From contig NZ_ALXE01000027.1 of assembly GCF_000295955.2 (NCBI RefSeq), forward strand, positions 62,001 through 126,000: 64,000 bases of DNA, read 5' to 3'. A program made the translations under genes and the position numbers. The notes under the pieces were generated by a model. It searched no databases. It was not told the DNA's origin and saw only the letters and a program-made list of their open reading frames with translations. Shown here piece by piece: positions 5,460-25,411 of the stretch. Each line of letters opens with the position of its first letter. Positions within the stretch are counted from its first letter, which is position 1. Source of the stretch: Pantoea sp. A4 (GTDB lineage Bacteria; Pseudomonadota; Gammaproteobacteria; Enterobacterales; Enterobacteriaceae).

Positions 5460-7232
5460 ATGCAGGGAACCCCATCCACACACATTGATGCTGATGCCGT
5501 TTTGACAGATTCCTGGTTTCGCAGTCAACAGTATGGATTAGAGCGCAATGCTGATGATTTTCCCCGTGTGCGCCAGGGTGAACTGGCTGATTTGATCGCC
5601 ACCCATGCCGGTTTGCAGCAGTTTTCCCAGCCCATCGTTAATGCCCTCGCACAAAAAATTGCTGATAAACAATCCGTCGTGATTCTTTCTGATGCCACCG
5701 GCCTGGTGCTGAATACTTTTGGTGACATGCACGCCATGCAGAAAGCACAGCGTTTCGCGCTGGCTCCGGGCAACCTGTGGAGTGAATGTGGCCGTGGCAC
5801 CAATGCTATTGGCACGGCTTTAGCCATTGATGACAGCTGTGAAATCACCGGCGACCAACATTTCCTCACCAGTAATCAGAACCTCTACTGCGCCGCGATC
5901 CCGCTGCAAACCCCCAACGGCCAAATAGCCGGCGTGCTGGATATTTCCGGCCCGGCACACTTTTCCCATCCGCACACGTTGGAATGGATTCAACAGGCGG
6001 CCCGGCAGATCGAATACCTCTGGGTGAAACAGAGCCTGCACCCACAACAGTGGTTGATGAGCCTGCATGTTCAGCCACAGGGGATTGATACCGGTGAAGA
6101 GCTCCTGCTGGTGTTCTCAGACAATATTCTCATGGCGGCAAATCGGGTAGCGACGCGCGAACTGGCATTGGGCGCGGAGCAATTTGGCCTGCTGCGTTTT
6201 GATCAGCTGTTCCCGTTACAGGAACAGCTTGCGACTTCACTTCCGCTGCCGGTGATCACCCACCAGCAACAAGCGTACTATTTCCGCTTGCGTGCCCCTG
6301 CCAGAGTACACCATGCCGTTAGCAGCGGCGGCGACCACAGCCTGCCCTTTTCCCTCCAGCGTGATGGCGAAAAAATGGTGCGCCTGCTTAACGCCGGAGT
6401 TTCTCTCTGTATTCAGGGCGAAACAGGCTGCGGCAAAGAGTACCTCAGCCGGGCATTGCATCAGCAAAGCCGCTGGAACACGGGTAAGTTTGTCGCCATC
6501 AACTGCGCCGCGATTCCCGAATCCCTGATTGAATCAGAGCTGTTTGGCTATCAGGCGGGGGCGTTTACCGGGGCCAGTAAAAATGGCTATATCGGTAAAA
6601 TTCGTGAGGCGGACGGCGGTGTGCTGTTCCTGGATGAAATTGGCGATATGCCACTGGCACTCCAGACGCGCCTGCTGCGCGTGTTGCAGGAAAAAGAGGT
6701 TGCTCCGCTCGGCTCTAGCCGGAGCTGGCCGGTGAATTTTGCCGTGATTAGCGCAACACACCGCAACCTGGCACAGCGAGTGGCTGAAGGCGCATTCCGT
6801 GAAGATTTACTCTACCGTTTACAGGAGTTCTCTTTCGCGATTCCTCCCCTGCGTGACTGGCCTGCATTACCGGACTTTATTCGCCGGTTGTGGCAAGAGC
6901 TGGATGGTGATGCGCGCAATGTCCAACTGCGGCCAGAGCTGCTGCAGTCTTTGGCGCAATTGCCCTGGCCGGGGAACGTCCGCCAGCTGCGCAGTCTGTT
7001 AAAAGTGCTGCTGGCCTTAGCGGATGATGGCGAAGTGCTCGGACAAGATAATCTGCCGCACGACTACCGTCCTCCAGAAGCGGAAGCGTCGGTGATGTTG
7101 CAACAACATGATGAGAAGCTGATTGCAGAAACGCTGCACCGCTTTGACGGAAATATCAGTAAAGCGGCGCAGGCGTTGGGAGTAGCACGCAGCACGCTCT
7201 ATCGGCGGGCTGCGCGGGAAAAGCAGGATTAA
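5460..7232 (+). CDS. Sigma-54-dependent transcriptional activator, AcoR type
   Basis: Enhancer-binding protein with a GAF-like sensor region (about residues 30-180), an AAA+ domain and a C-terminal Fis-type helix-turn-helix. Walker A is GETGCGKE, the sigma-54 contact loop is GAFTGA, and Walker B is [11 protein letters not shown]. The final helix is [20 protein letters not shown]. The N-terminus ([13 protein letters not shown]) resembles AcoR/MimR regulators of acetoin or alcohol catabolism. I chose ATG 5460 because GAGG lies five bases upstream; the in-frame ATG at 5424 has no ribosome site. It is divergent from the dehydrogenase operon, its likely target. The effector is unknown. Its stop overlaps the convergent yajQ stop by 3 bases. 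Confidence 0.88.
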
Positions 7233-7720
7233 TCGCGGAAGTTTTTGAACTGGAACGGCTGCCCCAGGTTACCACCGCGTACCAGCGCCATGGCGCCTTG
7301 CAGATCATCACGTGATTTGCCGGTAACGCGCAGTTCTTCACCCTGAATCTGGGTCTGCACCTTCAGCTTGCTGTCTTTGATCAGCTTAACCAGCTTTTTG
7401 GCAACGTCGCTTTCAATGCCTTTTTTCAGCTTGGCTTCCAAAGACCAGCTTTTACCGCTGTGTTCAATCTGTTCCGGGACTTCAATCGCCGCCCCTTCAA
7501 TGCCGCGTTTCAGCAGCTTTTCTCGCAAAATATCCACGATCTGTTTCACCTGGAAATCAGACTCGCTGGTGATTTTGATAGTTTCATTCTTTTCGTTGAG
7601 CTCAATGCTGGCGCTCACGTTACGGAAGTCGAAACGAGTAGAGAGTTCACGGTTGGCATTCTCGACTGCATTCCGTACTTCTGGCAACTCGACTTCTGAA
7701 ACGATATCGAAAGATGGCAT
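7229..7720 (-). CDS. yajQ: YajQ nucleotide-binding protein
   Basis: 163 residues from [19 protein letters not shown] to [11 protein letters not shown], the same length and ends as E. coli YajQ. The family has two ferredoxin-like domains; homologues bind nucleotides, tRNA or cyclic di-GMP and act as cytoplasmic effectors (family knowledge). ATG at 7720 has AGGAGAAG upstream, so a longer in-frame start at 7753 is not needed. Monocistronic and divergent from panE. Confidence 0.94.
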
Positions 7721-7850
7721 CTTTTCTTCTCCTGACGCTAAAGTGACAGGCATAATACGCGTCTTGTGCCAGTAAATAAAATCGCATAACGCTGAAAGCT
7801 ATACTGTGTAGATAGGGCGTTAACACCAGAAACCGCCAGCGGGAGGCAAA

Positions 7851-8771
7851 ATGAAGATTACCGTATTAGGCTGCGGTGCCATTGGCCAGGTTTGGCTCGC
7901 CGCGCTGGCCCGCCAGGGCCATGAAGTACAGGGCTGGTTACGCGTACCTCAGCCTTACTGTTCAGTAAAGGTGATTGATACTGAAGGTAACCGCAGCGAG
8001 AGCACTTTTATTGCTAATGACCCGCTGTTTCTTTCACAAAGCCAACTGCTCTTAGTCACGCTGAAAGCCCCTCAGGTTTCCCAGGCGGTAAAAAACCTGC
8101 AGGCCCTGTTGCCTGCCGAATGTCCGGTGCTGCTGCTGCATAACGGTATGGGGACCATGGAAGAGCTAAAAGGGCTGCCACAGCCGTTAGTGCGGGGGAT
8201 CACCACCCATGCAGCGCTGCGTGAAGAGGGCTATGTGCGCCACATCGCCAATGGCATTACCCATATTGGCCCAGGCAACCGCGCCAGTATGGCGCACAGT
8301 GACCTCGCGGATGTGCTCCACCAGGCCCTGCCTGATGTGGCATGGCACGATAACATCGCAGCCGCCTGCTGGCGTAAGCTGGCGGTTAACTGCGTCATCA
8401 ACCCGCTGAGCGTGGAGTACAACTGTAGCAACGGTGAACTGCATGATAAACGCGCGCAAATCACGTTGCTGTGTGATGAAGTGGCGCTGGTTATGGAGCG
8501 TGAAGGGCTGCATACCAGCAGTGGCGCGTTACAGGACATCGTCTATGACGTGATCGCCAGCACAGCGGCCAACGTCTCGTCTATGCTGCAGGACGTGCGC
8601 GCCCAGCGCTTGACTGAAATTGATTACATTAATGGTTTTCTGGTGCGCAAAGCTCGTAAACACGGTTTCAGCGTGGCGGAAAATAACCGACTGTACGAAC
8701 TGATTAAACGCAAGGAGTCTGATTATGATCGCGAAAGCTTCGGTACTGGTTTGCCTGGCTCATGGCAGTGA
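7851..8771 (+). CDS. panE: 2-dehydropantoate 2-reductase
   Basis: NADPH-dependent ketopantoate reductase forming pantoate for coenzyme A. 306 residues (E. coli 303). The Rossmann motif GCGAIG is at residues 7-12; HNGMGT and the catalytic region [13 protein letters not shown] follow. ATG at 7851 has GGGAGGCAAA in front. The 3' end overlaps yajL by 47 bp, so the two are co-transcribed. The overlap encodes the C-terminal [15 protein letters not shown]. Confidence 0.95.
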
Positions 8772-9330
8772 GGAGACAGAAGCGGTCACCACTATCGATC
8801 TGCTGGTGCGTGCGGGTTTGCACGTTGTCACCGCTAGCGTAGAAGGCGATGGCAGCCGTGAAATTCGCGGCTCACGCGGCGTGAAACTGCTGGCAGATGC
8901 GCCACTGGTTGAAGTGGCAGATAACGATTTTGCGGCGATTGTGTTGCCCGGCGGCTTGCCCGGCGCAGAAACCTTCCGTGATAGCCCGCTATTGATCGAA
9001 ACCGTACGCCAGTTTCATGTCTCTGGCCGTATTGTCGCGGCGATTTGCGCGGCACCCGGCACAGTGCTGATCCCGCACGATCTGTTCCCGGTAGGCAACA
9101 TGACCGGCCATCCCAGCCGCCGTGACACCATTCCTGATAAACACTGGGTCGATCGCCGTGTCGCCTGGGACCCACGGGTCAATCTGTTGACCAGCCAGGG
9201 CGTCGGGACGTCCATCGATTTTGCGCTGAAGTTGATTGATCTGCTGGTGAATAAAGAAACTGCCCGAGCCGTTGCAGCCCAACTGGTGGTTGCTGCTGGT
9301 ATCTACAACTACGATGACGAGCCGGCATAA
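8725..9330 (+). CDS. yajL: DJ-1-family protein deglycase/chaperone YajL
   Basis: 201-residue member of the DJ-1/ThiJ superfamily, which protects proteins against oxidative and carbonyl damage. The reactive Cys is Cys108 in AAICAAP, with the acidic partner in HGSEETEA (Glu16/17). The start lies inside panE (47-bp overlap) with AAGGAGTCTGATT just upstream, indicating translational coupling. Convergent with thiI. Confidence 0.93.
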
Positions 9331-9337
9331 CCTGGAA

Positions 9338-9365
9338 TGAAAAAGGCCCCGTTTTCACGGGGCCT
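9338..9365 (-). terminator. Intrinsic terminator of thiI
   Basis: Stem AGGCCCCG-loop-CGGGGCCT between yajL and thiI. The T-run (TTTTTC) follows the stem on the minus strand, 6 bases after the thiI stop, so it ends the thiI transcript. On the plus strand there is no T-run. Confidence 0.85.
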
Positions 9366-9370
9366 GATGC

Positions 9371-10819
9371 TTATGGGCGATAGATTTTCACGTTGGCATG
9401 GCCCTGCTCGTGCAGGTAGAGCGCCTGCAAGCGGCTCATCACACCACGGTCGCAATACAGCAGCCAGGTTTTGCTCTGATCGAGGTCAGCAAACTGGGTG
9501 CTGAGTTTGTAGAACGGCAAACTTTTCACCTCAGCGCCTTCCAGCACCAGCGGTTTGGCTTCCTGCTCATCGATAGAGCGAATATCCAGCACCACGTCAT
9601 TTTCGCTGAACGATGCCACGGTTTCGACTTCGGGAACTTCTTCGCGCGCCTGCTGTGCAATCTCGCGGATATCCATATTGCTGGCTTCGGCGATCACGCG
9701 CTCCAGAATACTGAAATCAAAGTTCGCCTCTTCCGCTTCGATCTTCGCCTTCACCGCTTTTACCGTTGGGCTTTTGGAGATAACGCCACAGTATTCCGGC
9801 ATGGTTTTGGCAAAATCTTCGGTGCCGATGTGGCGCGCCAGATTGATGATGTGCTCTTTATCATGGGAGATAAGCGGACGCAGAATCAGCGTATCTGAGG
9901 CGTTATCGATCAGGCGCAGGTTGGTCAGGGTCTGGCTTGATACCTGGCCGAGTGCTTCACCCGTCACCAGCGCCTGTACGCCATAGCGTTCTGCAATCGT
10001 TGACGCCGCGCGTACCATCATGCGCTTCAGCACCACGCCCATCTGGCCATCATCCACTTTTTCGAGGATCTCGCCTACGACCGGCTCGAAGTTGATCGCA
10101 ACGAAACGCACGCGGTGTGAACGACCAAAACGCTGCCACAGATAGTGAGCCACCTGACGAACGCCAATTTCATGCGCGGCACCACCAAGGTTAAAGAAGC
10201 AGTAGTGAACGCGGCAGCCACGGCGCAGTAACATATAACTGGAGACGCCAGAGTCAAAGCCACCGGAAATCAGCGACAGCACATCTTCCTGGCTACCGAT
10301 CGGGAAACCACCCAGACCTTCGTAACGGCCAGTGATTAACAGCACCCGGTCATTCTCAATTTCGAGATTGACGGTCACATCCGGTTTGGTGAGCTGTACG
10401 CGCGCGCTGGCAATGTGTTGATTCAGACCACCACCCACGTAGCGCTCAACATCCTGTGAGCTAAAGCTGTGCTGACCACGACGCTTAACGCGGACGCAGA
10501 AACTTTTGTTCTCCAGCCCGTCGCGGTAGAGCGCCAGCGTCTGTTCAAAGATGTCATGGATATCATTATACGGACGGTCTTCCACCGCCAGGACGTGATG
10601 GATACCCGGAATACGGGTCAGTTCACCGGTGATAACTTCACGCAGGCTTTCATCTTTTGCACGGACTTCAATGTGATCCCAGTGGCGCACCACGGCCATC
10701 TCTTCCGTGATCGTCTTGAGTACATTGCGAATGTTTCCGCTAAGCATTTTGATAAAGCGCAGACGCACCGACTGACTTTTGATGGTGATTTCAGGAAATA
10801 ATTTAATGATAAACTTCAT
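9371..10819 (-). CDS. thiI: tRNA 4-thiouridine synthase / thiazole sulfurtransferase ThiI
   Basis: 482 residues, identical in length to E. coli ThiI. It has an N-terminal ferredoxin-like and THUMP region, a PP-loop ATPase ([14 protein letters not shown]) and a C-terminal rhodanese domain. The persulfide Cys is Cys456 ([10 protein letters not shown]), and the partner Cys is in [10 protein letters not shown]. It makes s4U8 in tRNA and supplies sulfur for the thiazole of thiamine, so it fits thematically with thiL and dxs nearby. Divergent from xseB. Confidence 0.96.
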
Positions 10820-11052
10820 GGCGGCACAGGTTCATTGAGCAAAATAGTGCTAAAAGCTTTCGCTGTTAGCGAGTAAAATCAGAGAATTCGCGGGATCAAC
10901 TGCACCTCCGCGACCAGGGCGCGAAGTATACCACCTTTGTCTCCTGACTGCTTCTGCAAGCTGATTCACATTGAACATTTTGCTAATCAATCTGACTCGG
11001 CTACCATGACCGTTGATCAGACGATGACTAACTCTGTGAGTTGACACAAAAT

Positions 11053-14164: not shown

Positions 14165-15139
14165 ATGAAAACCATTCAATTAGGCAAAACCGATCTCCAG
14201 GTGTCACGCCTGAGTCTTGGCTGTATGACTTTCGGCGAGCCAGAACGTGGACGTCACGCCTGGACGCTGCCCGAAGAGAGCAGCCGCCCGTTGATTCAGC
14301 AGGCGCTGGATGCTGGCATCAACTTTTTTGATACCGCCAACAGCTACTCCGATGGCAGCAGTGAAGAGATCGTGGGCCGGGCGCTGAAGGATTTTGCCCG
14401 ACGCGAAGAGGTAGTTATTGCCACCAAAGTGTTCTTTTCACTGAGTAATCTCTCTCAGGGGTTATCGCGCAAGAATATTCTGCAATCCGTCGATGATAGC
14501 CTGCGCCGCCTCGGCACCGACTATATCGATCTGTTACAGATCCACCGCTGGGATTACGAAACGCCGCTAGAGGAGACGCTGGAAGCACTGCATGACGTAG
14601 TACAGGCCGGTAAAGTCCGCTATCTCGGCGCTTCTTCCATGCATGCCTGGCAATTTGCTAAGGCACTCTACACTCAGCAGCATCAAGGCTGGCACGCGTT
14701 TGTCAGCATGCAGGACCAGTACAATCTAATTCAGCGTGAAGAAGAGCGTGAGATGCATCCACTGTGTCAGGCTGAAGGGATTGCGGTGCTGCCATGGAGC
14801 CCACTGGCCCGTGGCCGCCTGACGCGCCCCTGGGGAGAAGCCACTGCACGCACGGCTTCAGACGAATACGGCAAAACGCTGTATAGCGCCACTGAAGAGA
14901 ATGATGCTGAAATCGCCCAACGCGTGGCCCGTATCGCGGAAGATAAAGGCGTTTCCCGTGCACAAGTTGCCCTGGCGTGGATGCTGCATAAACCGGCTAT
15001 CACCGCACCGATTATTGGTGCTTCACGCGCGGAGCAGTTGAACGATCTGGTACAGGCTGTTGATGTGCAACTCAGTTCCATTGAGATCGCTGAGCTGGAG
15101 TCGGCCTATCAGCCGCATCCCGTGGTGGGGTTTGATTAG
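14165..15139 (+). CDS. yajO: Aldo/keto reductase YajO
   Basis: 324 residues, same length as E. coli YajO, an NADPH-dependent aldo/keto reductase implicated in 1-deoxyxylulose-related thiamine metabolism. The catalytic tetrad is visible as FFDTANSYSDG (Asp, Tyr), ATKV (Lys) and LQIHRWD (His); the NADPH region is PIIGASRAEQL near the C-terminus. It starts ATGAAAACC with AGGAAGCAACG upstream. Position right after dxs fits a role near DXP, though the substrate is not proven by sequence. Confidence 0.93.
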   Translation: MKTIQLGKTDLQVSRLSLGCMTFGEPERGRHAWTLPEESSRPLIQQALDAGINFFDTANSYSDGSSEEIVGRALKDFARREEVVIATKVFFSLSNLSQGLSRKNILQSVDDSLRRLGTDYIDLLQIHRWDYETPLEETLEALHDVVQAGKVRYLGASSMHAWQFAKALYTQQHQGWHAFVSMQDQYNLIQREEEREMHPLCQAEGIAVLPWSPLARGRLTRPWGEATARTASDEYGKTLYSATEENDAEIAQRVARIAEDKGVSRAQVALAWMLHKPAITAPIIGASRAEQLNDLVQAVDVQLSSIEIAELESAYQPHPVVGFD

Positions 15140-15219
15140 TTACGGTCTCGGTTGAGGTGGTGATTGAGGCTACGGTCAAAACATGCGACTGACAAACTGA
15201 GAAACTTCGGCCTGTAAGG

Positions 15220-15256
15220 GGAAAAGGCCGTGTACTGAATCCCAGAACACGGCCTT
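15220..15256 (-). terminator. Terminator of the nrdR-thiL gene run
   Basis: Ten-bp inverted repeat AAGGCCGTGT...ACACGGCCTT, 25 bp after the thiL stop. On the minus strand it is followed by TTCCCC, a weak U-tract. In E. coli pgpA would occupy this position; here the transcript ends instead. Confidence 0.65.
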
Positions 15257-15281
15257 CTGACAGAAGTGCTTTTGCTAAAAC

Positions 15282-16259
15282 CTACTTCTTCACAAAGTGA
15301 TCGTATCCCTGGAAACTGGCACTGGCTGGTTTGCCATTTTCCAGCAGGGTAAACCCGTCAGCCTCGGGCAGAATTTGCCCTACGCAGGTGTAAGGGACAC
15401 CGAGATGTCCTAATGCAACGTCCAGCGCGCCACGATTCACTTCCGGCACGGTGAAGCACAGCTCATAGTCTTCGCCGCCGCTCAGCGCCCAGCGCATCAC
15501 TTGCTCATGCTCAAAATGATCGCGCAATACAGCAGAAAGCGGCAGCGCCTCCAGATTGACCTTCGCGCCACAGCGGCTTGCCTGAAGCACATGCCCCAGA
15601 TCGGAAATCAGGCCATCGGAGATATCAATCGCGGAACTTGCCAGAGCGCGTAAAGCCTGACCTTGCAGAATGCGCGGCATCGGCCGCAGATGGCGTTTAA
15701 TCAGCGCTTCATGCACGGCTGGGTCGGCAATGCGCTGATGATGTTGTAACAGTGCCAGACCGGCAGCGCTATCGCCTAATGTCCCGGTGACATAGATCCA
15801 GTCGCCAGGGCGTGCACCGCTGCGTCGTAACGCTTTACCGACTGGCACCATCCCGTGAATGCCGAGCGTCATGCTCAACGGACCACGCGTGGTATCACCG
15901 CCAATCAGCTGCATATTGTAGTAATTCAGTAGCTCAAACAAACTGTCACTGAATGCCTGCAACCAGCTCTCGTCGACTTCGGGTAACGTCAGCGCCAGCG
16001 TTAACCACGCAGGATCGGCCCCCATCGCGGCCAGATCGCTGAGGTTCACTGCCAGTGCTTTATAGCCTAAATCAGCGGGATGGATATCCCGTAAGAAATG
16101 CACCCCTTCGACCAACGTATCAGTGCTGATTGCCAACGTCTGTTTTTCAGGCAGGTTCAGCAGTGCGCAGTCATCACCAATGCCCTTCTCCACATCGCGG
16201 CGGGAACTGGTGACGCGGTTGAAGTAACGTGCAATGAGTTCGAATTCGCCACAGGCCAT
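15282..16259 (-). CDS. thiL: Thiamine-monophosphate kinase
   Basis: Phosphorylates thiamine monophosphate to the active diphosphate. 325 residues like E. coli ThiL. N-terminus [14 protein letters not shown], then the ATP/Mg site GIGDDCALL (about 26-34) and [20 protein letters not shown] is the second conserved motif. It lies downstream of nusB but behind a strong terminator-like hairpin (16274-16298), so its expression may be attenuated. The usual downstream partner pgpA is missing. Confidence 0.96.
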
Positions 16260-18858: not shown

Positions 18859-19027
18859 GGTGTTTCCTGAAACCAGATAAATGATCTTCACAGTGTAGCG
18901 CGAACTGGCAAGCAACAAAATGCATTAGCGTACCTTTCCAGACTATGAGAGAAGCGAAAACGGCCTCATGCTGCTAACATCTGTCGTCATGCTTGCGACT
19001 CACTTCATTGGCTATTCAGGAAAAAAC

Positions 19028-19588
19028 ATGTTCAACAGGACGCTTTGCGCACCCTTTGCCCTGTCACTGCTCATTTTAAGCGGCTGTAGCAGCACCGCGC
19101 CCTCACCACAGGTCAAGCAACTGCATCAGGAAGTCAGTCAACTGAGCCAGCAGATGCAACAGCTTACTGGGCAGGCTGAAGCGCTGGAAACCCAGGGGCA
19201 GCTCAATAGCCAGGCAGCACAGGGGGCATGGTTACTGCCGCTGGCAAAAACGCCCGTGTTGCTACAAACCCAACTGGGCGAAATCCGTCTCTCACTCGGC
19301 CAGGTCAAAGGGGATGTTGAGGGTAGCCGGGTTGATCTGACACTGAGCAGCAGCAACCATCAGCCACTACCGGCGCTGAGCGCCAGCGTGGTTTGGGGTG
19401 AACTTGATCCCACCAGTGGGAAACCACTGAATGCCAGTAGCCAGCAACAGACGCTGGTTATTCCCGCTAGCCTGACGCCACAATCTTCGGTAACCGTGCC
19501 CTTACATCTTGGTGGCTTAGCCCCGGAACAGCTTGGTTTCATTCGCGTACATGACGTCATGAGCAACGGCGAGCCGTTGACGCACTGA
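19028..19588 (+). CDS. yajI: DUF3251 lipoprotein YajI
   Basis: 186 residues with a lipoprotein signal: basic start MFNRTLC, hydrophobic core, lipobox LSGC (Cys about residue 19). A short heptad stretch follows (QLHQEVSQLSQQMQQLTGQ), then a beta-rich domain ending PEQLGFIRVHD. It sits next to nrdR as E. coli yajI does. I chose ATG 19028 because AGGA lies 7 bases upstream and the signal then has normal length. Function unknown; envelope-associated by the lipobox. Confidence 0.82.
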   Translation: MFNRTLCAPFALSLLILSGCSSTAPSPQVKQLHQEVSQLSQQMQQLTGQAEALETQGQLNSQAAQGAWLLPLAKTPVLLQTQLGEIRLSLGQVKGDVEGSRVDLTLSSSNHQPLPALSASVVWGELDPTSGKPLNASSQQQTLVIPASLTPQSSVTVPLHLGGLAPEQLGFIRVHDVMSNGEPLTH

Positions 19589-19622: not shown

Positions 19623-19697
19623 ACATCAAGCTCCCCTCTCCTGACTGCAACACAATTCTGCAACCTTACGGTCATCGGACGTCCATATACCGCCCCC

Positions 19698-19703
19698 TAT
19701 AAT
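19698..19703 (+). promoter_or_regulatory. Candidate -10 element of the glycolipid-type gene set
   Basis: Consensus TATAAT about 52 bp before the start of the metallophosphoesterase gene. No convincing -35 hexamer stands 16-18 bp upstream, so this is a partial promoter call only. Confidence 0.4.
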
Positions 19704-19755: not shown

Positions 19756-20574
19756 ATGCCAGGCTATGCTGGTCTTCCCGCTGCGGCGCGATATCGCACG
19801 CTGTTCCTGTCTGATTTACATCTGGGTGCTCAGGGGTGTCATGTGGAGAAGATTCTGCACTTTCTCCAGACCCACGAAGCCGAAAACATCTATCTGGTGG
19901 GCGATATTTTCGATCTTGGCCGAAGGCGGCCACAATTCTGGAGCCCGCGGCACGATGAGATCCTCTCGCTGCTGAAAGCCCGTCAGGCGGCAGGAATGAC
20001 GCTGATACGGCTCCCCGGCAATCACGATCCCTGTCTCGCCCCCCAAGATACCCATCCTCACTCTTCGTTAATTCCCGCACACCATGACTATGTGATCCAC
20101 CAGGCGGCCGACAAGCGTCGCTACCTGATTACCCACGGTCACTGCTGTGATTTCTGGCTCGGTCGCTCCCATCTGATGTCACGGGTGGGTAGCTATCTTG
20201 AAGGGCGGATGCGGCGCTGTGCCGCCAGACATCATCAGCCGCGCCAGAGCGGGTTTGTCTCCGGCTTTGTTGATGCGTTTAACAGCCTGCTGACGTGGGG
20301 AGGATTAATCGAGAAGCGGCTGGTCGCCCTGGCACGCCAGCATGGGGTCGATGGTGTGGTTTGCGGGCACTTACACCGCGCCGCGTTGAACCACTATCAG
20401 GGCACACTTTACGCTAACTGTGGCGACTGGATCAGCAGCATGAGCGCGCTGGTAGAAGATCATCACGGAACATTAAGCCTGATTGACTGGTGTGGCGCAC
20501 CGCTGTTGCAGGCGGCTGAGCCCCCCGTTTCCGTATTGGCAGAGCTTGAACAGCCTGAAGAGAGAATGGCATGA
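19756..20574 (+). CDS. LpxH-like metallophosphoesterase (UDP-diacylglucosamine pyrophosphatase family)
   Basis: 272 residues with the full calcineurin-like metal site: SDLHLG, VGDIFDLG, PGNHDP, THGHCCDF and GHLHRA. It resembles the LpxH-related UDP-2,3-diacylglucosamine pyrophosphatase group rather than LpxH itself (GNHD instead of GNRD, different C-terminus). ATG 19756 has CAGGAGGACGTT in front, a strong ribosome site; an in-frame ATG at 19702 lacks one. Its stop overlaps the next start (ATGA), so it is coupled to the GT21 gene. By context it may hydrolyse a nucleotide-linked lipid or sugar; the substrate is unknown. The housekeeping lpxH should lie elsewhere. Confidence 0.8.
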   Translation: MPGYAGLPAAARYRTLFLSDLHLGAQGCHVEKILHFLQTHEAENIYLVGDIFDLGRRRPQFWSPRHDEILSLLKARQAAGMTLIRLPGNHDPCLAPQDTHPHSSLIPAHHDYVIHQAADKRRYLITHGHCCDFWLGRSHLMSRVGSYLEGRMRRCAARHHQPRQSGFVSGFVDAFNSLLTWGGLIEKRLVALARQHGVDGVVCGHLHRAALNHYQGTLYANCGDWISSMSALVEDHHGTLSLIDWCGAPLLQAAEPPVSVLAELEQPEERMA

Positions 20575-21704
20575 ATCTGATGACGATTGTGGTACTGAGC
20601 GCCTGCATCCTTCTGACGCTCATTCAGCTCGGCTCACTGTTACTGGTCCGCTGGCGGTTACATCAGCCACTGCGACAATCGACGACCGCGCTGCCGTTTA
20701 TTACACTTGCACGCCCAGTGTGCGGACTGGACTGCTTTGATGAAGCCACGTTGCGCTCCAGCTTTGTGCAGAACTATCCGCACTATGAAATTCTGTTTTG
20801 TGTTGCCTCTCCGCGCGATCCCATCATTCCTGTGATAAAGCGCTTGATGGTCGAATTTCCGCAGCAGCAGGCCCAGCTACTGATCGGCGACATGCATGCC
20901 ACCACTAACCCCAAAATCAATAATCTGATGAAAGCCACTCAGCACAGTCAGGCTGAATGGCTGGTCATGGCAGACAGCAATTTGCTGCTCCCACCGGACT
21001 ACCTGCGCGTGTTACTCGCTTCGGCCACAGACAAGACTGCGCTGGTAAGTTCTCCAGCGATTGGCATCATGGCAGAAAATTTGTGGGGTGCCGTCGAGGC
21101 GGCGATGCTGAATACCCACCAGGCACGCTGGCAGTTTAATTCTGATGTCATCGGCAAGGGGTTTGCTCAAGGGAAAACCCTGTGCTGGCGTCGAGAGGTG
21201 CTGGAGCAGCACGGTGGCTTAATCGCCCTTGGGGCCGAGCTGGCAGAAGATGTCGCCTCCACGAAAATGGCACGCAACGCCGGACTGCAAGTCACTCTGC
21301 CACCACGCCCCTTCTGTCAACCCATTGGTCGCCGCAGCTTTACTGCCGTCTGGCAGCGTCAACTGCGCTGGGCGCGTATTCGTCGCTTCGGCTTCTTCTG
21401 GCTATTCATACCCGAGATCTTACTCGGTGCTCTGCCCGCACTGCTCGGCAGTCTGTGGCTGGTACAGCAAGAGGTTATCCCGGCACTGGTGCCCGTGATG
21501 CTGATGGCGCTGTGGTACGGCGCTGAGTGGGCACTGGCGTACAGCGCTGGCTGGCCACACCGGGCAAGGGATGTGCTGGCGATGATGATCCGCGATTTGC
21601 TGCTGCCGGCACTGTGGCTATGGTGCTGGGCTGGACGCAGCTTTACCTGGCGAGGCAATGTCCTTTCCAGCGCACTGAATGCACCGCAAATGAATGAGGA
21701 GTAA
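20571..21704 (+). CDS. Family 21 glycosyltransferase (ceramide glucosyltransferase / HpnI-like)
   Basis: 377-residue membrane glycosyltransferase. An N-terminal membrane anchor (residues ~5-25) precedes the GT-A domain, and C-terminal hydrophobic segments follow. GT21 features include ARPVCGLD, a DSN metal motif in MADSNLLLPPDY, the acidic LGAELAEDV region, and the (R/Q)xxRW-type motif as RQLRWARI. Family members transfer glucose to ceramide or act on hopanoid lipids (HpnI). It overlaps the upstream phosphoesterase gene by 4 bp. The lipid acceptor in this organism is unknown; neither ceramide nor hopanoid genes are in the window. Confidence 0.8.
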   Translation: MNLMTIVVLSACILLTLIQLGSLLLVRWRLHQPLRQSTTALPFITLARPVCGLDCFDEATLRSSFVQNYPHYEILFCVASPRDPIIPVIKRLMVEFPQQQAQLLIGDMHATTNPKINNLMKATQHSQAEWLVMADSNLLLPPDYLRVLLASATDKTALVSSPAIGIMAENLWGAVEAAMLNTHQARWQFNSDVIGKGFAQGKTLCWRREVLEQHGGLIALGAELAEDVASTKMARNAGLQVTLPPRPFCQPIGRRSFTAVWQRQLRWARIRRFGFFWLFIPEILLGALPALLGSLWLVQQEVIPALVPVMLMALWYGAEWALAYSAGWPHRARDVLAMMIRDLLLPALWLWCWAGRSFTWRGNVLSSALNAPQMNEE

Positions 21705-21798
21705 AGATCATCGCCAATATTGCAAAACGACCCTCGCGGGAAGCACCACGGGCAAAATGCAGTATCTACATCCCGCCCTGTCGCGTCAGGGGTGAACG

Positions 21799-22497
21799 AT
21801 GACTGAAAGTGACTGCATCACGGTGAGCTGCATTATCCCGGCCTTCAATGAAGCCGCCCGCATTGATGCTGTGTTAAGTGCAGTGGTAGGACATCCACTG
21901 ATTCATGAAGTGATTGTGGTGGACGACCGATCTCGCGATGCCACCGTCAATGTGGCGCGCCGCCGCCGCGTGCGGGTGATCCAGCTGAAACGTAATCAGG
22001 GGAAAAGCGCCGCCGTTGCCCAGGGTGTCGCCGCCAGTCATGGTAGCCACATACTGCTGTTGGATGCGGATTTAGTCGGCCTGAGTACCGATGACATCAC
22101 CGCCCTGATCTATCCGGTGCTGCACCACAGTGTCGATGCCACCATTAGCCTGCGCAGCAATAGCCCGTTACTGTGGCGCGCCATCGGACTGGATTATATT
22201 TCTGGTGAGCGGGTATTTCCGCGCTCACTGGTGGCCAATCGGCTCAAAGAGATGCGCCAGTTGCCCCGTTTCGGTCTGGAAGTGTGGCTGAACAGCCTGT
22301 GGATTGAGCTACAACTGCACGTACAGGTGGTAGGCTGGTCACATGTCATCAGCCCACTGAAGGGCCGAAAAATGGGCTGGTGGCGCGGTATTCGCGCAGA
22401 TGCCCGCATGATGTGTGATATTTTCCGCACCATTTCCCCACGTGATGCCCTCCAGCAAATTTATGCCTTACAGCGCAGTCGCTTTCGCGGCAACTAG
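21799..22497 (+). CDS. Family 2 glycosyltransferase
   Basis: 232-residue GT-A glycosyltransferase with CIIPAFNEAARI, VVDDRSRDAT (first Asp motif) and LLLDADLVG (DXD-like). There is no clear membrane helix, so it is probably cytosolic or peripheral. It lies 94 bp after the GT21 gene on the same strand and ends the set. It resembles dolichyl/polyprenyl-phosphate sugar transferases in the N-terminal half, but donor and acceptor cannot be read from sequence. It converges on secF. Confidence 0.78.
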   Translation: MTESDCITVSCIIPAFNEAARIDAVLSAVVGHPLIHEVIVVDDRSRDATVNVARRRRVRVIQLKRNQGKSAAVAQGVAASHGSHILLLDADLVGLSTDDITALIYPVLHHSVDATISLRSNSPLLWRAIGLDYISGERVFPRSLVANRLKEMRQLPRFGLEVWLNSLWIELQLHVQVVGWSHVISPLKGRKMGWWRGIRADARMMCDIFRTISPRDALQQIYALQRSRFRGN

Positions 22498-22584: not shown

Positions 22585-23553
22585 TTACGGCATGATCGAT
22601 GGCTGATCCGCCCCTTCCTTCTCGACTTTTTGCACCAGCAAATGCTCGCGCTTCATGCCGAGTTTCAGCGCCAGCGCTGAAGAGACATAAATCGAGGAGA
22701 CAGTACCAATGGTGACACCGATCAGCATAGTGAGCGAGAAGCCTTTCAGCAGTGCGCCACCAAAGATGAACAGAATCAGAATCATCGCCAGCGTTGTCGC
22801 TGAAGTGATAATGGTACGGCTCAGCGTTTGCGTCAGTGAGACGTTAGTAATGTCGTAAGAGGAACCACGGCGAATTTTGCGGAAGTTCTCACGAATACGG
22901 TCAGATACCACGATCTTATCGTTAAGCGAGTAACCAATCACCGACATCAGTGATGCAACGATGGTTAAATCGATTTCGATATGGAACAGTGACAGCAGAC
23001 CCGCCGTGATGATCACGTCGTGCGCCAGCGCCAGTACGGTACCGAGCGCCAGACGCCATTCGAAGCGAAAACCGATGTAGATCAGAATCGCAATTAACGC
23101 TGACATCAGCGCCATCGCACCAGCCTGAGCCAGATCGCTACCAACGCTTGGGCCAACAAACTCAATGCGTTTCACGGTCGCGTTCTGCTGTGCAGTCTGG
23201 TTGATCACCGCCAGTACTTTGGTACCCAGTTCCTGCCCTGCCGCGCCGCTGGTCGGTGGCATACGCACCACTACGTCACGGCTGCTGCCGAAGTTCTGCA
23301 CCTGCGGCTCATCAAAGCCCGCCTGTTGCAGTGCTGATCGCAGCGTATCCAGGTCGGTTGGTTTTTCCAGGTTAATCTCGATCACCGTACCACCGGTGAA
23401 ATCCAGACCCCAGTTAAAACCGCGCACACCCATGATCGCCACTGCGGCAATAATCAGCAGGCCGGAGATGAGAAACGCCAGCTTATCCCAGCGCATAAAG
23501 TCGACGACTTTACGCCCGTGGTTTAGCTGCTCAATAGTATATTCCTGTGCCAC
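22585..23553 (-). CDS. secF: Protein translocase subunit SecF
   Basis: Inner-membrane partner of SecD; uses the proton gradient to drive late stages of Sec export. 322 residues from GTG at 23553 ([23 protein letters not shown]. coli 323). AAGGAGT lies five bases upstream of that GTG, so the longer in-frame ATG extension to 23661, which overlaps secD, is not used. Typical motifs are [21 protein letters not shown] and [20 protein letters not shown]. Six membrane segments. Gap to secD is 10 bp. Confidence 0.96.
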
Positions 23554-23563
23554 AACGCACTCC

Positions 23564-25411
23564 TTAGATAGACAGCTTGTTGATGCGTTTGCCGCCGTAC
23601 ACCAGGTTAACGATGGCACGAGTACCGATAATCGCGGTAAACATCGACGTACCGATACCAATTGCAGTGGTAATCGCGAACCCTTTGATTGAACCCGTAC
23701 CTACCGCATACAGAATGATAACTTTGATCAGGGTGGTGACGTTTGCATCCACGATACTGGAGAAGGCACCTTTGTACCCCTCGTGAATCGCCTGCTGTAC
23801 GCTTCGCCCATTACGCAGCTCTTCTTTGATACGTTCGTTAATCAGTACGTTTGCATCCACGGCCACCGCCAGCGTCAACACAATACCGGCAATGCCTGGC
23901 ATGGTCAGCGTAGCACCTGGGATCAACGACATAATGCCGACAATCAATACCAGGTTAGCCAGCAGCGCACTGGTCGCAATCAAACCAAACTTCTTATAGA
24001 AGAACACCATAAACAGAATCGAGGCAATCAGGCCCCACAGGCAAGCTTCAAGTCCCTGAGTAATGTTCTGCTGGCCCATGGTTGGACCGATGGTACGCTC
24101 TTCAACAATCTGGATTGGCGCAATCAACGCACCGGCACGGAGCAGCAGCGAGAGCTGACGCGCTTCGTTCGGGTTATTGATGCCGGTGATACGGAAGCTG
24201 TTACCCAGACGAGACTGGATGTTTGCAACGTTAATCACTTCTTCCTGTTTCACCAGAATCGCACGACCGTTGGCATCTTTCTTACCGCTGTCTTTGTACT
24301 CAACAAACAGGGTCGCCATCGGTTTACCGATGTTGTCCTTGGTGTAGTTCGACATCAGCGATCCGCCAGCGCTATCCAGCGAGATGTTCACCTGTGGCTG
24401 GTTGTACTCATCCATACTGGAGGTGGAATCCGTGATGTGGTCACCGGTCAGGATAACGCGTTTGTACAGCACAACCGGCTGGCCATCACGCGACATCTTC
24501 ACTTCGGAGTCACCCGGCACGCGGCCCTGAGACGCAGAAAGCGCATCAACGCTGGTGTTAACCGGACGGAACTCCAGCGTTGCGGTTGCACCCAGGATCT
24601 CTTTCGCACGCGCGGTATCCTGAATACCTGGCAGTTCCACCACGATGCGGTCAGCACCCTGACGTTGAACCACTGGCTCAGCAACACCCAACTGGTTTAC
24701 ACGGTTACGCAGAATCGTGATGTTCTGTTGTACTGCGTATTCACGCGCTTCACGCAGGCGATCGTCAGACATGACGGCACGCAGCGCGTTGCTGCCACTG
24801 CTGGTGATAACGAGGTCACGATGACGTGAGGTCAGGTATGAGATCGCAGCATCACGGCTGTTGGCATCCGCAAAGCGGATTTCCACACCGTAGTTGTCGA
24901 TTTTATTGACGTTGGTATAAGGGATGTTTTTGTCGCGCAGATCGCCACGCAGACTGTCTGCATTTTGCTCTTGCAGCTTACCCAGCGCGGTATCCATATC
25001 GACTTCCATCAGGAAGTGCACACCACCACGCAGATCGAGACCGAGTTTCATCGGCTCCGCTGACAGCATCCGCAGCCATTCAGGCTGAGCAGGTGCCAGG
25101 TTGAGGGCAACTACATAGTTCTCGCCAAGAACCTTCATAATCGCTTCACGGGCGCTTAACTGCACATCCGTGTTAGCAAAGCGGGCGGTAATCGCCCCGT
25201 TTTCCAGTGCGATAGATTTGCTCTGGATATTATCTTGTTTTAATACGTTCTGAACCTGATCCAACGTTTGCTCACTGGCGGCGCCACCGCGCGCGCCAGT
25301 GATCTGAACAGCCGGATCCTCACCATACAGGTTGGGAAGTGCATACACTAAGCCGACGACGAACACGACAATCAGCATGATGTACTTCCACAAAGGATAA
25401 CGATTTAACAC
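23564..25411 (-). CDS. secD: Protein translocase subunit SecD
   Basis: 615 residues, the same as E. coli. Begins [16 protein letters not shown] (first membrane segment), a large periplasmic P1 region with [16 protein letters not shown], then membrane segments 2-6 with [22 protein letters not shown]. It forms the SecDF complex with the next gene and works with YajC. Operon tgt-yajC-secD-secF is intact. Confidence 0.97.

Follow-up and report, generated by a model that had tools for sequence, protein, structure and literature searches.

We analysed a 64,000-nucleotide stretch of Pantoea sp. A4 DNA (the window), part of contig 25 of a 5.33-Mb genome. Between yajI and secF it carries three + strand genes that encode a phosphoesterase (PE), a GT21 glycosyltransferase and a GT2-type glycosyltransferase (open reading frame (ORF) list and Pfam; Table 1). 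We consider it probable (about 0.72) that this cassette was acquired horizontally and is a slightly shortened version of a four-gene operon for phospholipid-to-glycolipid remodelling, in which a PlcP-type enzyme would release diacylglycerol (DAG) and the two transferases would glycosylate it. The computed evidence comprises the conserved gene order, the placement of the proteins in families, the absence of a VTT (DedA-like) gene, insertion at yajI-secF and Pho-box enrichment upstream of alphaproteobacterial copies. Codes beginning with G and L denote sampled genomes and loci, G000 being the genome of the window.

The ORFs bore out the description of the trio in an earlier note on this DNA as three co-directional genes, the first two overlapping by 4 bp. 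Their products matched Metallophos (39.4 bits, cut-off 21.5), Glyco_transf_21 (165.3 bits, cut-off 21.7) and Glycos_transf_2 (77.1 bits, cut-off 23.3). An alternative in-frame ATG for PE lies at 19702; the ATG at 19756 is the better start, with a Shine-Dalgarno-like aggagg at ~19746. The GT21 and GT2 genes are separated by 94 bp, and no VTT remnant was recognisable in this spacer. GC content was 56.7–58.0% in the cassette, 54.5% in the window and 53.2–56.3% in the flanking genes; the cassette composition carries no strong foreign signature. The trio is not a chance arrangement, because it recurs in other genomes, usually with one extra gene.

Table 1. Features of the yajI-secF locus and a second cluster in the same genome
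Feature	Coordinates	Strand	Evidence or position
yajI (DUF3251)	18968-19588		left flank of trio
Weak Pho-box-like sequence, 11/14 consensus positions, start 98 bp 5' of ATG 19756	19658..19675	+	
Metallophosphoesterase of PlcP type, 272 aa, proposed to release DAG as an intracellular phospholipase C	19756..20574	+	ORF, families, tree, motifs
Lipid glycosyltransferase of family GT21, 377 aa, proposed to add the first sugar to DAG	20571..21704	+	PF13506, tree, PDB match
Spacer, site of VTT/DedA-like gene in 7/7 other enterobacterial loci	21705..21798	+	locus comparison
GT2-type (GT-A fold) glycosyltransferase, 232 aa, proposed second sugar transfer	21799..22497	+	Pfam, alignment, model
secF ORF	22585-23661	-	right flank of trio
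Sphingolipid-type cluster, outside the window	L073 (G000:C19:198000-212000), 6785-10901	-	

Family placement of the phosphoesterase and the GT21

PE had been assigned to the UDP-diacylglucosamine pyrophosphatase group. This held at the superfamily level and failed for LpxH itself, the curated LpxH models giving 40.9 and 33 bits (cut-offs 134 and 190.35). The genome encodes a canonical LpxH that scored 340.5 bits in a search in which PE reached 22.5. PE carries the motifs SDLHL, GDIFD, GNHDP, HGHCCD and GHLHR, among them the GNH[DE] signature of metallophosphoesterases; E. coli LpxH and the genome's own LpxH have GNRDF in place of GNHDP. In our alignment residue 90 of PE was His, as in all 16 non-LpxH rows, and Arg in both LpxH. 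An Arg in place of the usual His (Arg80 in PaLpxH) is described as unique to LpxH, where it binds the phosphate of lipid X (PMC5016852; papers are cited by PMC identifier, from the portions of text available). Seventeen alignment columns set both LpxH apart from 15 or more of the other 16 rows.

An 18-row tree separated the same two LpxH from the 16 other proteins (support 100/100). PE clustered with other cassette phosphoesterases plus a single Thioclava gene (9 rows, 99/100), and this clade stood beside Sinorhizobium meliloti PlcP and PlcP-like proteins, apart from LpxH. Loci L090, L092 and L102 are absent from this tree, no PE row having passed the ORF filter. PE shared 33% identity with the S. 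meliloti protein (242 columns), 25% with the genome's own LpxH (252 columns) and 29% with E. coli LpxH (126 columns). The S. meliloti protein is the one reference in the tree tied to a characterised PlcP, an assignment made by gene neighbourhood. We recognised it from its annotation and from two nearby genes, an N-acyl-homoserine lactone synthase gene and a LuxR gene, which we take to be sinRI near SMc00171. SMc00171 is a phospholipase C and is listed among Pho regulon genes (PMC3596328). A structure model of PE was too poor to use (pLDDT 48.5). By its sequence, PE is PlcP-like and not LpxH. We rejected LpxH as its identity on the scores below cut-off, the His in place of the diagnostic Arg, the presence of a separate LpxH and the 100/100 split.

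We also opened seven non-cassette homologues of PE on plasmids. A glycosyltransferase gene lay directly downstream in three (Pseudomonas aeruginosa, Sphingomonas and Parabacteroides). The Thiodictyon homologue had one upstream in the opposite direction, and those of Thioclava, Mitsuaria and Roseomonas had none adjacent. At L142 and L144, plasmid loci of P. aeruginosa and Sphingomonas, a PlcP-like gene is paired with a glycosyltransferase family 1 gene, and the phosphoesterase is annotated as a lipid A enzyme. The annotation "UDP-2,3-diacylglucosamine diphosphatase" can mask a different enzyme.

The best NCBIfam match of the GT21 protein was HpnI (198.2 bits, under the cut-off of 310). The protein has an N-terminal hydrophobic helix by hydropathy, and it aligned with a PDB chain of a ceramide glucosyltransferase (E 3e-31). 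The motifs DSN, AED and QLRWA, presumably the active-site motifs of the family, were invariant in four copies. A 57-row tree split into 41 and 16 rows (100/100). The 41 rows comprised the window protein, enterobacterial and alphaproteobacterial cassette proteins and single alphaproteobacterial GT21s; the 16 comprised three proteins annotated as HpnI, together with other GT21s of gammaproteobacteria, the HpnI branch being long and possibly misplaced. Seven enterobacterial GT21s formed one clade (100/100), joined by six alphaproteobacterial cassette proteins (87/82). Three further cassette GT21s stood apart, and 25 single GT21s, including those of S. fredii NGR234, Shinella and Methylobacterium, formed one set (99/100); the tree left the branching order among these three groups unresolved. 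The window protein was 39–47% identical to the adjoining single alphaproteobacterial GT21s, Rhizobiaceae among them.

These data place the protein in GT21 by family match and tree, and not among ordinary GT2 polysaccharide synthases, the outcome the earlier note had named as telling against its proposal. On score and tree position the protein is not HpnI, which tells against the hopanoid role also suggested for it. Under that suggestion the transferase would glycosylate hopanoids as HpnI does, and the HpnI model is its best NCBIfam match. The missed cut-off and the 100/100 split from the three HpnI speak against this. Those three loci have hpnK and/or hpnJ nearby, and the window gene has yajI and secF. 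Squalene-hopene cyclase (TIGR01507) had no match in the genome, in a search in which 0/14 control genomes passed the cut-off either, so that a strong positive control is lacking. We regard hopanoid glycosylation as extremely improbable.

Distribution, insertion site and Pho boxes

We observed matches in 2/60 relatives, the window genome itself and Candidatus Pantoea haifensis (G005). Of 392 genomes of the family, which we take to be Enterobacteriaceae in the wide GTDB sense, 11 matched at E 0.001. Four were close, the window genome and three others at 56–61% identity (G127, G174 and G378); the other seven reached at most 26%. The genes are indeed unusual for enterobacteria, as had been proposed, with close copies in 4/392 family genomes. 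A class sample gave matches in 30/369 genomes, the window genome included, the others being no more than 31% identical. A scan of named genomes, from which the window genome was possibly left out, matched Brenneria sp. 4F2, Brenneria sp. hezel4-2-4, Rahnella perminowiae and Ca. P. haifensis.

Gene order was compared across seven other enterobacterial loci, with P. haifensis counted once. A VTT gene lay between GT21 and GT2 in all seven, GT2 was present in 7/7 and PE in 3/7; the window copy alone lacks VTT among the enterobacterial loci. Nine flanking genes of the window had no match in the eight enterobacterial cassette loci, and the cassette therefore occupies other sites there. Across the P. 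haifensis loci L018 and L136, the cassette and yajI each carry frameshifts. These breaks are likely assembly errors and not true pseudogenes, because yajI is broken as well as the cassette. This genome was kept out of the trees.

The four-gene order PE-GT21-VTT-GT2 was found by tblastn on plasmids of Fuscovulum blasticum and Gemmobacter fulvus, both of the order Rhodobacterales; a Pannonibacter plasmid had PE-GT21-GT2, lacking VTT. On a Thioclava plasmid (L055, NZ_CP019439.1) the annotation of a cassette copy is fragmented, and transposase genes lie upstream of this copy; the same strain has a second PE-like gene on another plasmid (L143). In a phylum sample, 42/398 genomes matched at E 1e-15, the window genome included. 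Among 27 close loci of this sample (38–53% identical), cassette partners lay within ~1.5 kb in 6 and none was shown in 21, a few of the 27 ending early at contig ends. One alphaproteobacterial family (f239, probably Rhodobacteraceae) had GT21 in 21/248 genomes, adjoined by GT2 in 21/21, VTT in 20/21 and PE in 20/21. As for conservation of the trio across relatives, the cassette recurs in few enterobacteria and in alphaproteobacteria, and is absent from the yajI-secF stretch of 19/19 congeners.

In E. coli K-12, yajD-tsx sits between secF and yajI, and the trio had been read as replacing this region. That reading is misleading. In 19/19 other genomes of the genus that we examined, secF follows yajI; the gap between the aligned ends is 55–148 bp in 18 of them and 597 bp in the other. 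Neither tsx, yajD nor the cassette had a match within the fetched yajI-secF stretch of any of the 19. The trio is therefore a ~3 kb insertion at yajI-secF in this lineage, and not a replacement of tsx/yajD. At another place in the window (15139-15282), pgpA is missing between thiL and a yajO-like gene and had no tblastn match anywhere in the window; in E. coli, pgpA follows thiL.

We scored upstream regions against the Pho consensus CTGTCATNNNNCTGTCAT (PMC8528852), with a maximum of 14 per site. The set comprised 26 alphaproteobacterial cassette upstream regions; L091, which has no PE, was left out. The summed best score was 263, above all shuffles (mean 227, maximum 239; 0/300 reached 263) and all permuted motifs (mean 231; 0/400 as high, the top score being 258 for a near-identical rearrangement). 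The reverse strand of the same regions gave 247. A spacer of 4 bases was the best of 12 (0 to 11), followed by a spacer of 6 (253). No single region scored above 11/14. Control promoters were close to expectation (17 promoters taken at three of the cassette loci, 150 vs 149.6; six E. coli promoters, 54 vs 53.0). Five E. coli Pho promoters totalled 60 vs 45.7 (phoA 13, phoB 12, pstS 14, phoE 11 and phnC 10, each of 14). Because some of these known sites score low, weak genuine sites can escape the scan. These data support predicted phosphate control of the alphaproteobacterial operons.

A proposed lipid-remodelling pathway and its rivals

Gene order and families suggest how the operon may work; the enzymatic steps, the sugars, the role of VTT and phosphate control in Pantoea are our inferences. 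The PlcP-type phosphoesterase would hydrolyse phosphatidylethanolamine or related phospholipids to DAG and a phosphoalcohol. GT21 would then attach galactose or glucose to DAG as the first hexose, and GT2 would add a second sugar to the glycosyl-DAG. In other copies the VTT protein probably moves the lipid across the inner membrane, a task that further DedA proteins of this host may take over here.

Characterised systems offer parallels. In PMC4796936, plcP lies directly upstream of glycosyltransferase genes, one of which was shown to make di/triglycosyl-DAG. The marine operons of types 3 and 5 in that paper resemble the cassette in that a PlcP-like gene directly precedes a glycosyltransferase gene, and putative Pho boxes are reported in plcP clusters, as enriched here in alphaproteobacterial copies. 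Here the gene pair is part of a conserved four-gene unit with VTT and GT2, found also in enterobacteria. The DAG-glycosylating Pgts of Mesorhizobium loti and Agrobacterium tumefaciens belong to GT21 (PMC8231724), the family of the window protein, which in the tree adjoins a set of single GT21s, some of them from Rhizobiaceae. Unlike these processive enzymes, the cassette GT21 has a GT2 partner and so may add the first sugar only. P. aeruginosa likewise has a PlcP-type phospholipase adjoining a DAG glycosyltransferase, Agt (PMC8528852); Agt, unlike the window enzyme, is of the GT4 type (PMC8231724). Rhodobacter sphaeroides makes glucosylgalactosyl-DAG, alpha-Glc(1-4)-beta-Gal-DAG (PMC3972451), a two-sugar DAG that this Rhodobacterales species forms under phosphate starvation. 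We hypothesise that a retaining second glucosyltransferase would suit this product. For LpxH and HpnI, the likeness goes no further than superfamily and fold; curated cut-offs and trees fail for both.

Several observations weigh against the remodelling pathway. PE is missing beside GT21 in 4/7 other enterobacterial loci and so is not strictly required there. It shares 33% identity with S. meliloti PlcP and falls in a separate subclade, and 4/7 non-cassette homologues lack a glycosyltransferase gene directly downstream. The enzyme activities of the cassette clade are read from sequence, and "Pgt-like" for the window GT21 is a family-level assignment from a comparison with HpnI, cassette and single GT21s. 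The genome's own serine palmitoyltransferase leaves ceramide as a further possible acceptor. The Pho signal upstream of eight enterobacterial copies was weak (77 vs 72.9; 30/400 permuted motifs as good), and the best site in the window was at chance level (equalled by 52/500 shuffles, and by 89/1000 in another run). Phosphate control of the Pantoea copy is unproven.

Ceramide would be the acceptor in a rival glycosphingolipid pathway, in which GT21 (and GT2) would glycosylate the product of a serine palmitoyltransferase cluster elsewhere in the genome. We consider this unlikely, although several data fit it. The genome encodes a serine palmitoyltransferase (613.8 bits, cut-off 500), clustered with genes for an acyl carrier protein, an NAD-dependent reductase and a fatty acyl-AMP ligase. 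Near this cluster (L073) is a divergent 376-aa gene without a family match, which we take to resemble bacterial ceramide synthase. The search for ceramide or hopanoid genes proposed by the earlier note was thus positive for serine palmitoyltransferase and gave no match for the cyclase. Serine palmitoyltransferase occurred in 38/392 family genomes (37 above cut-off) and in 2/4 cassette genomes (hypergeometric 0.048 for at least 2), with two copies in G174. The PDB alignment of GT21 to ceramide glucosyltransferase fits as well, and Pgt, which favours DAG, accepts ceramide too, less well (PMC3972451). However, G127, G378 and G005 gave BioF/Kbl-like matches only (31–33% identity), and G127, with a four-gene copy but no close serine palmitoyltransferase match, speaks for DAG. 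The association rests on 2/4 genomes, 36/38 palmitoyltransferase genomes have no cassette, and it is not evident what the linked PlcP-type gene would do with ceramide. The co-occurrence neither requires nor excludes ceramide as acceptor. A second extra BioF/Kbl-type acyltransferase gene lies at L072 (G000:C31:65000-81000, 7531-8775, - strand), in what by eye is an apparent large polyketide synthase cluster.

The second transferase and VTT raise the question of a surface or periplasmic glycan, for which GT2 would load a sugar on undecaprenyl phosphate and VTT would recycle the carrier, lipid glycosylation being secondary. The best PDB sequence match of GT2 was GtrB, a polyisoprenyl-phosphate transferase (E 1.8e-6), ahead of glucosyl-3-phosphoglycerate synthase (5e-5), and VTT showed a weak likeness to the undecaprenyl phosphate transporter UptA (39 bits, cut-off 250). 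GtrB carries membrane helices, however, and a simple hydropathy scan found no hydrophobic segment in GT2. The GT2 model (pTM 0.74) was closest in fold to glucosyl-3-phosphoglycerate synthases (E 2.5e-13, TM 0.68), with ArnC and GtrB behind (E about 1e-11). The synthase was also the best NCBIfam match (52.5 bits vs a cut-off of 262; next model 52.1). Such a glycan role seems quite improbable. Still less probable is a lipid A-related modification, also put forward in the earlier note, in which UDP-diacylglucosamine or lipid A precursors would be the substrate of the phosphoesterase, to be decorated by the transferases. Superfamily resemblance to LpxH, which also supplies the best PDB sequence matches of PE, and the annotation name of its homologues favour it; the missed LpxH cut-offs, the His in place of Arg, the normal LpxH of the genome and the tree split stand against it. 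The glycolipid cluster proposed in the same note is supported. Phospholipid remodelling is of a known kind, and its four-gene form, passed to a few enterobacteria and cut to three genes here, is the best account of the locus.

Two extensions are speculative and we consider them unlikely: that GT21 and GT2 glycosylate ceramide besides DAG, giving Pantoea glycosphingolipids, or that the two enzymes make alpha-Glc(1-4)-beta-Gal-DAG operon-wide. In the open-licence PMC literature we found no paper on plcP with DedA and a glycosyltransferase, on a glycolipid in Pantoea with PlcP, or on serine palmitoyltransferase and sphingolipid together with Enterobacteriaceae and Pantoea. The combinations searched for GT21 with ceramide glucosyltransferase, and for LpxH with GNHD, likewise yielded no paper.

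Some bacteria swap phospholipids for sugar lipids under phosphate scarcity, and the cassette looks like a compact kit for such a swap. To our knowledge, enterobacteria are thought to retain phospholipid membranes under phosphate shortage. The conserved four-gene unit links a VTT protein and a second transferase to lipid remodelling. If ceramide were glycosylated as well, Pantoea sp. A4 would be an enterobacterium with both sphingolipid and phosphate-free glycolipid membranes. If the remodelling pathway is correct, PlcP-GT21-GT2 in Pantoea and its Brenneria and Rahnella relatives would give a few enterobacteria phosphate-free membrane lipids.

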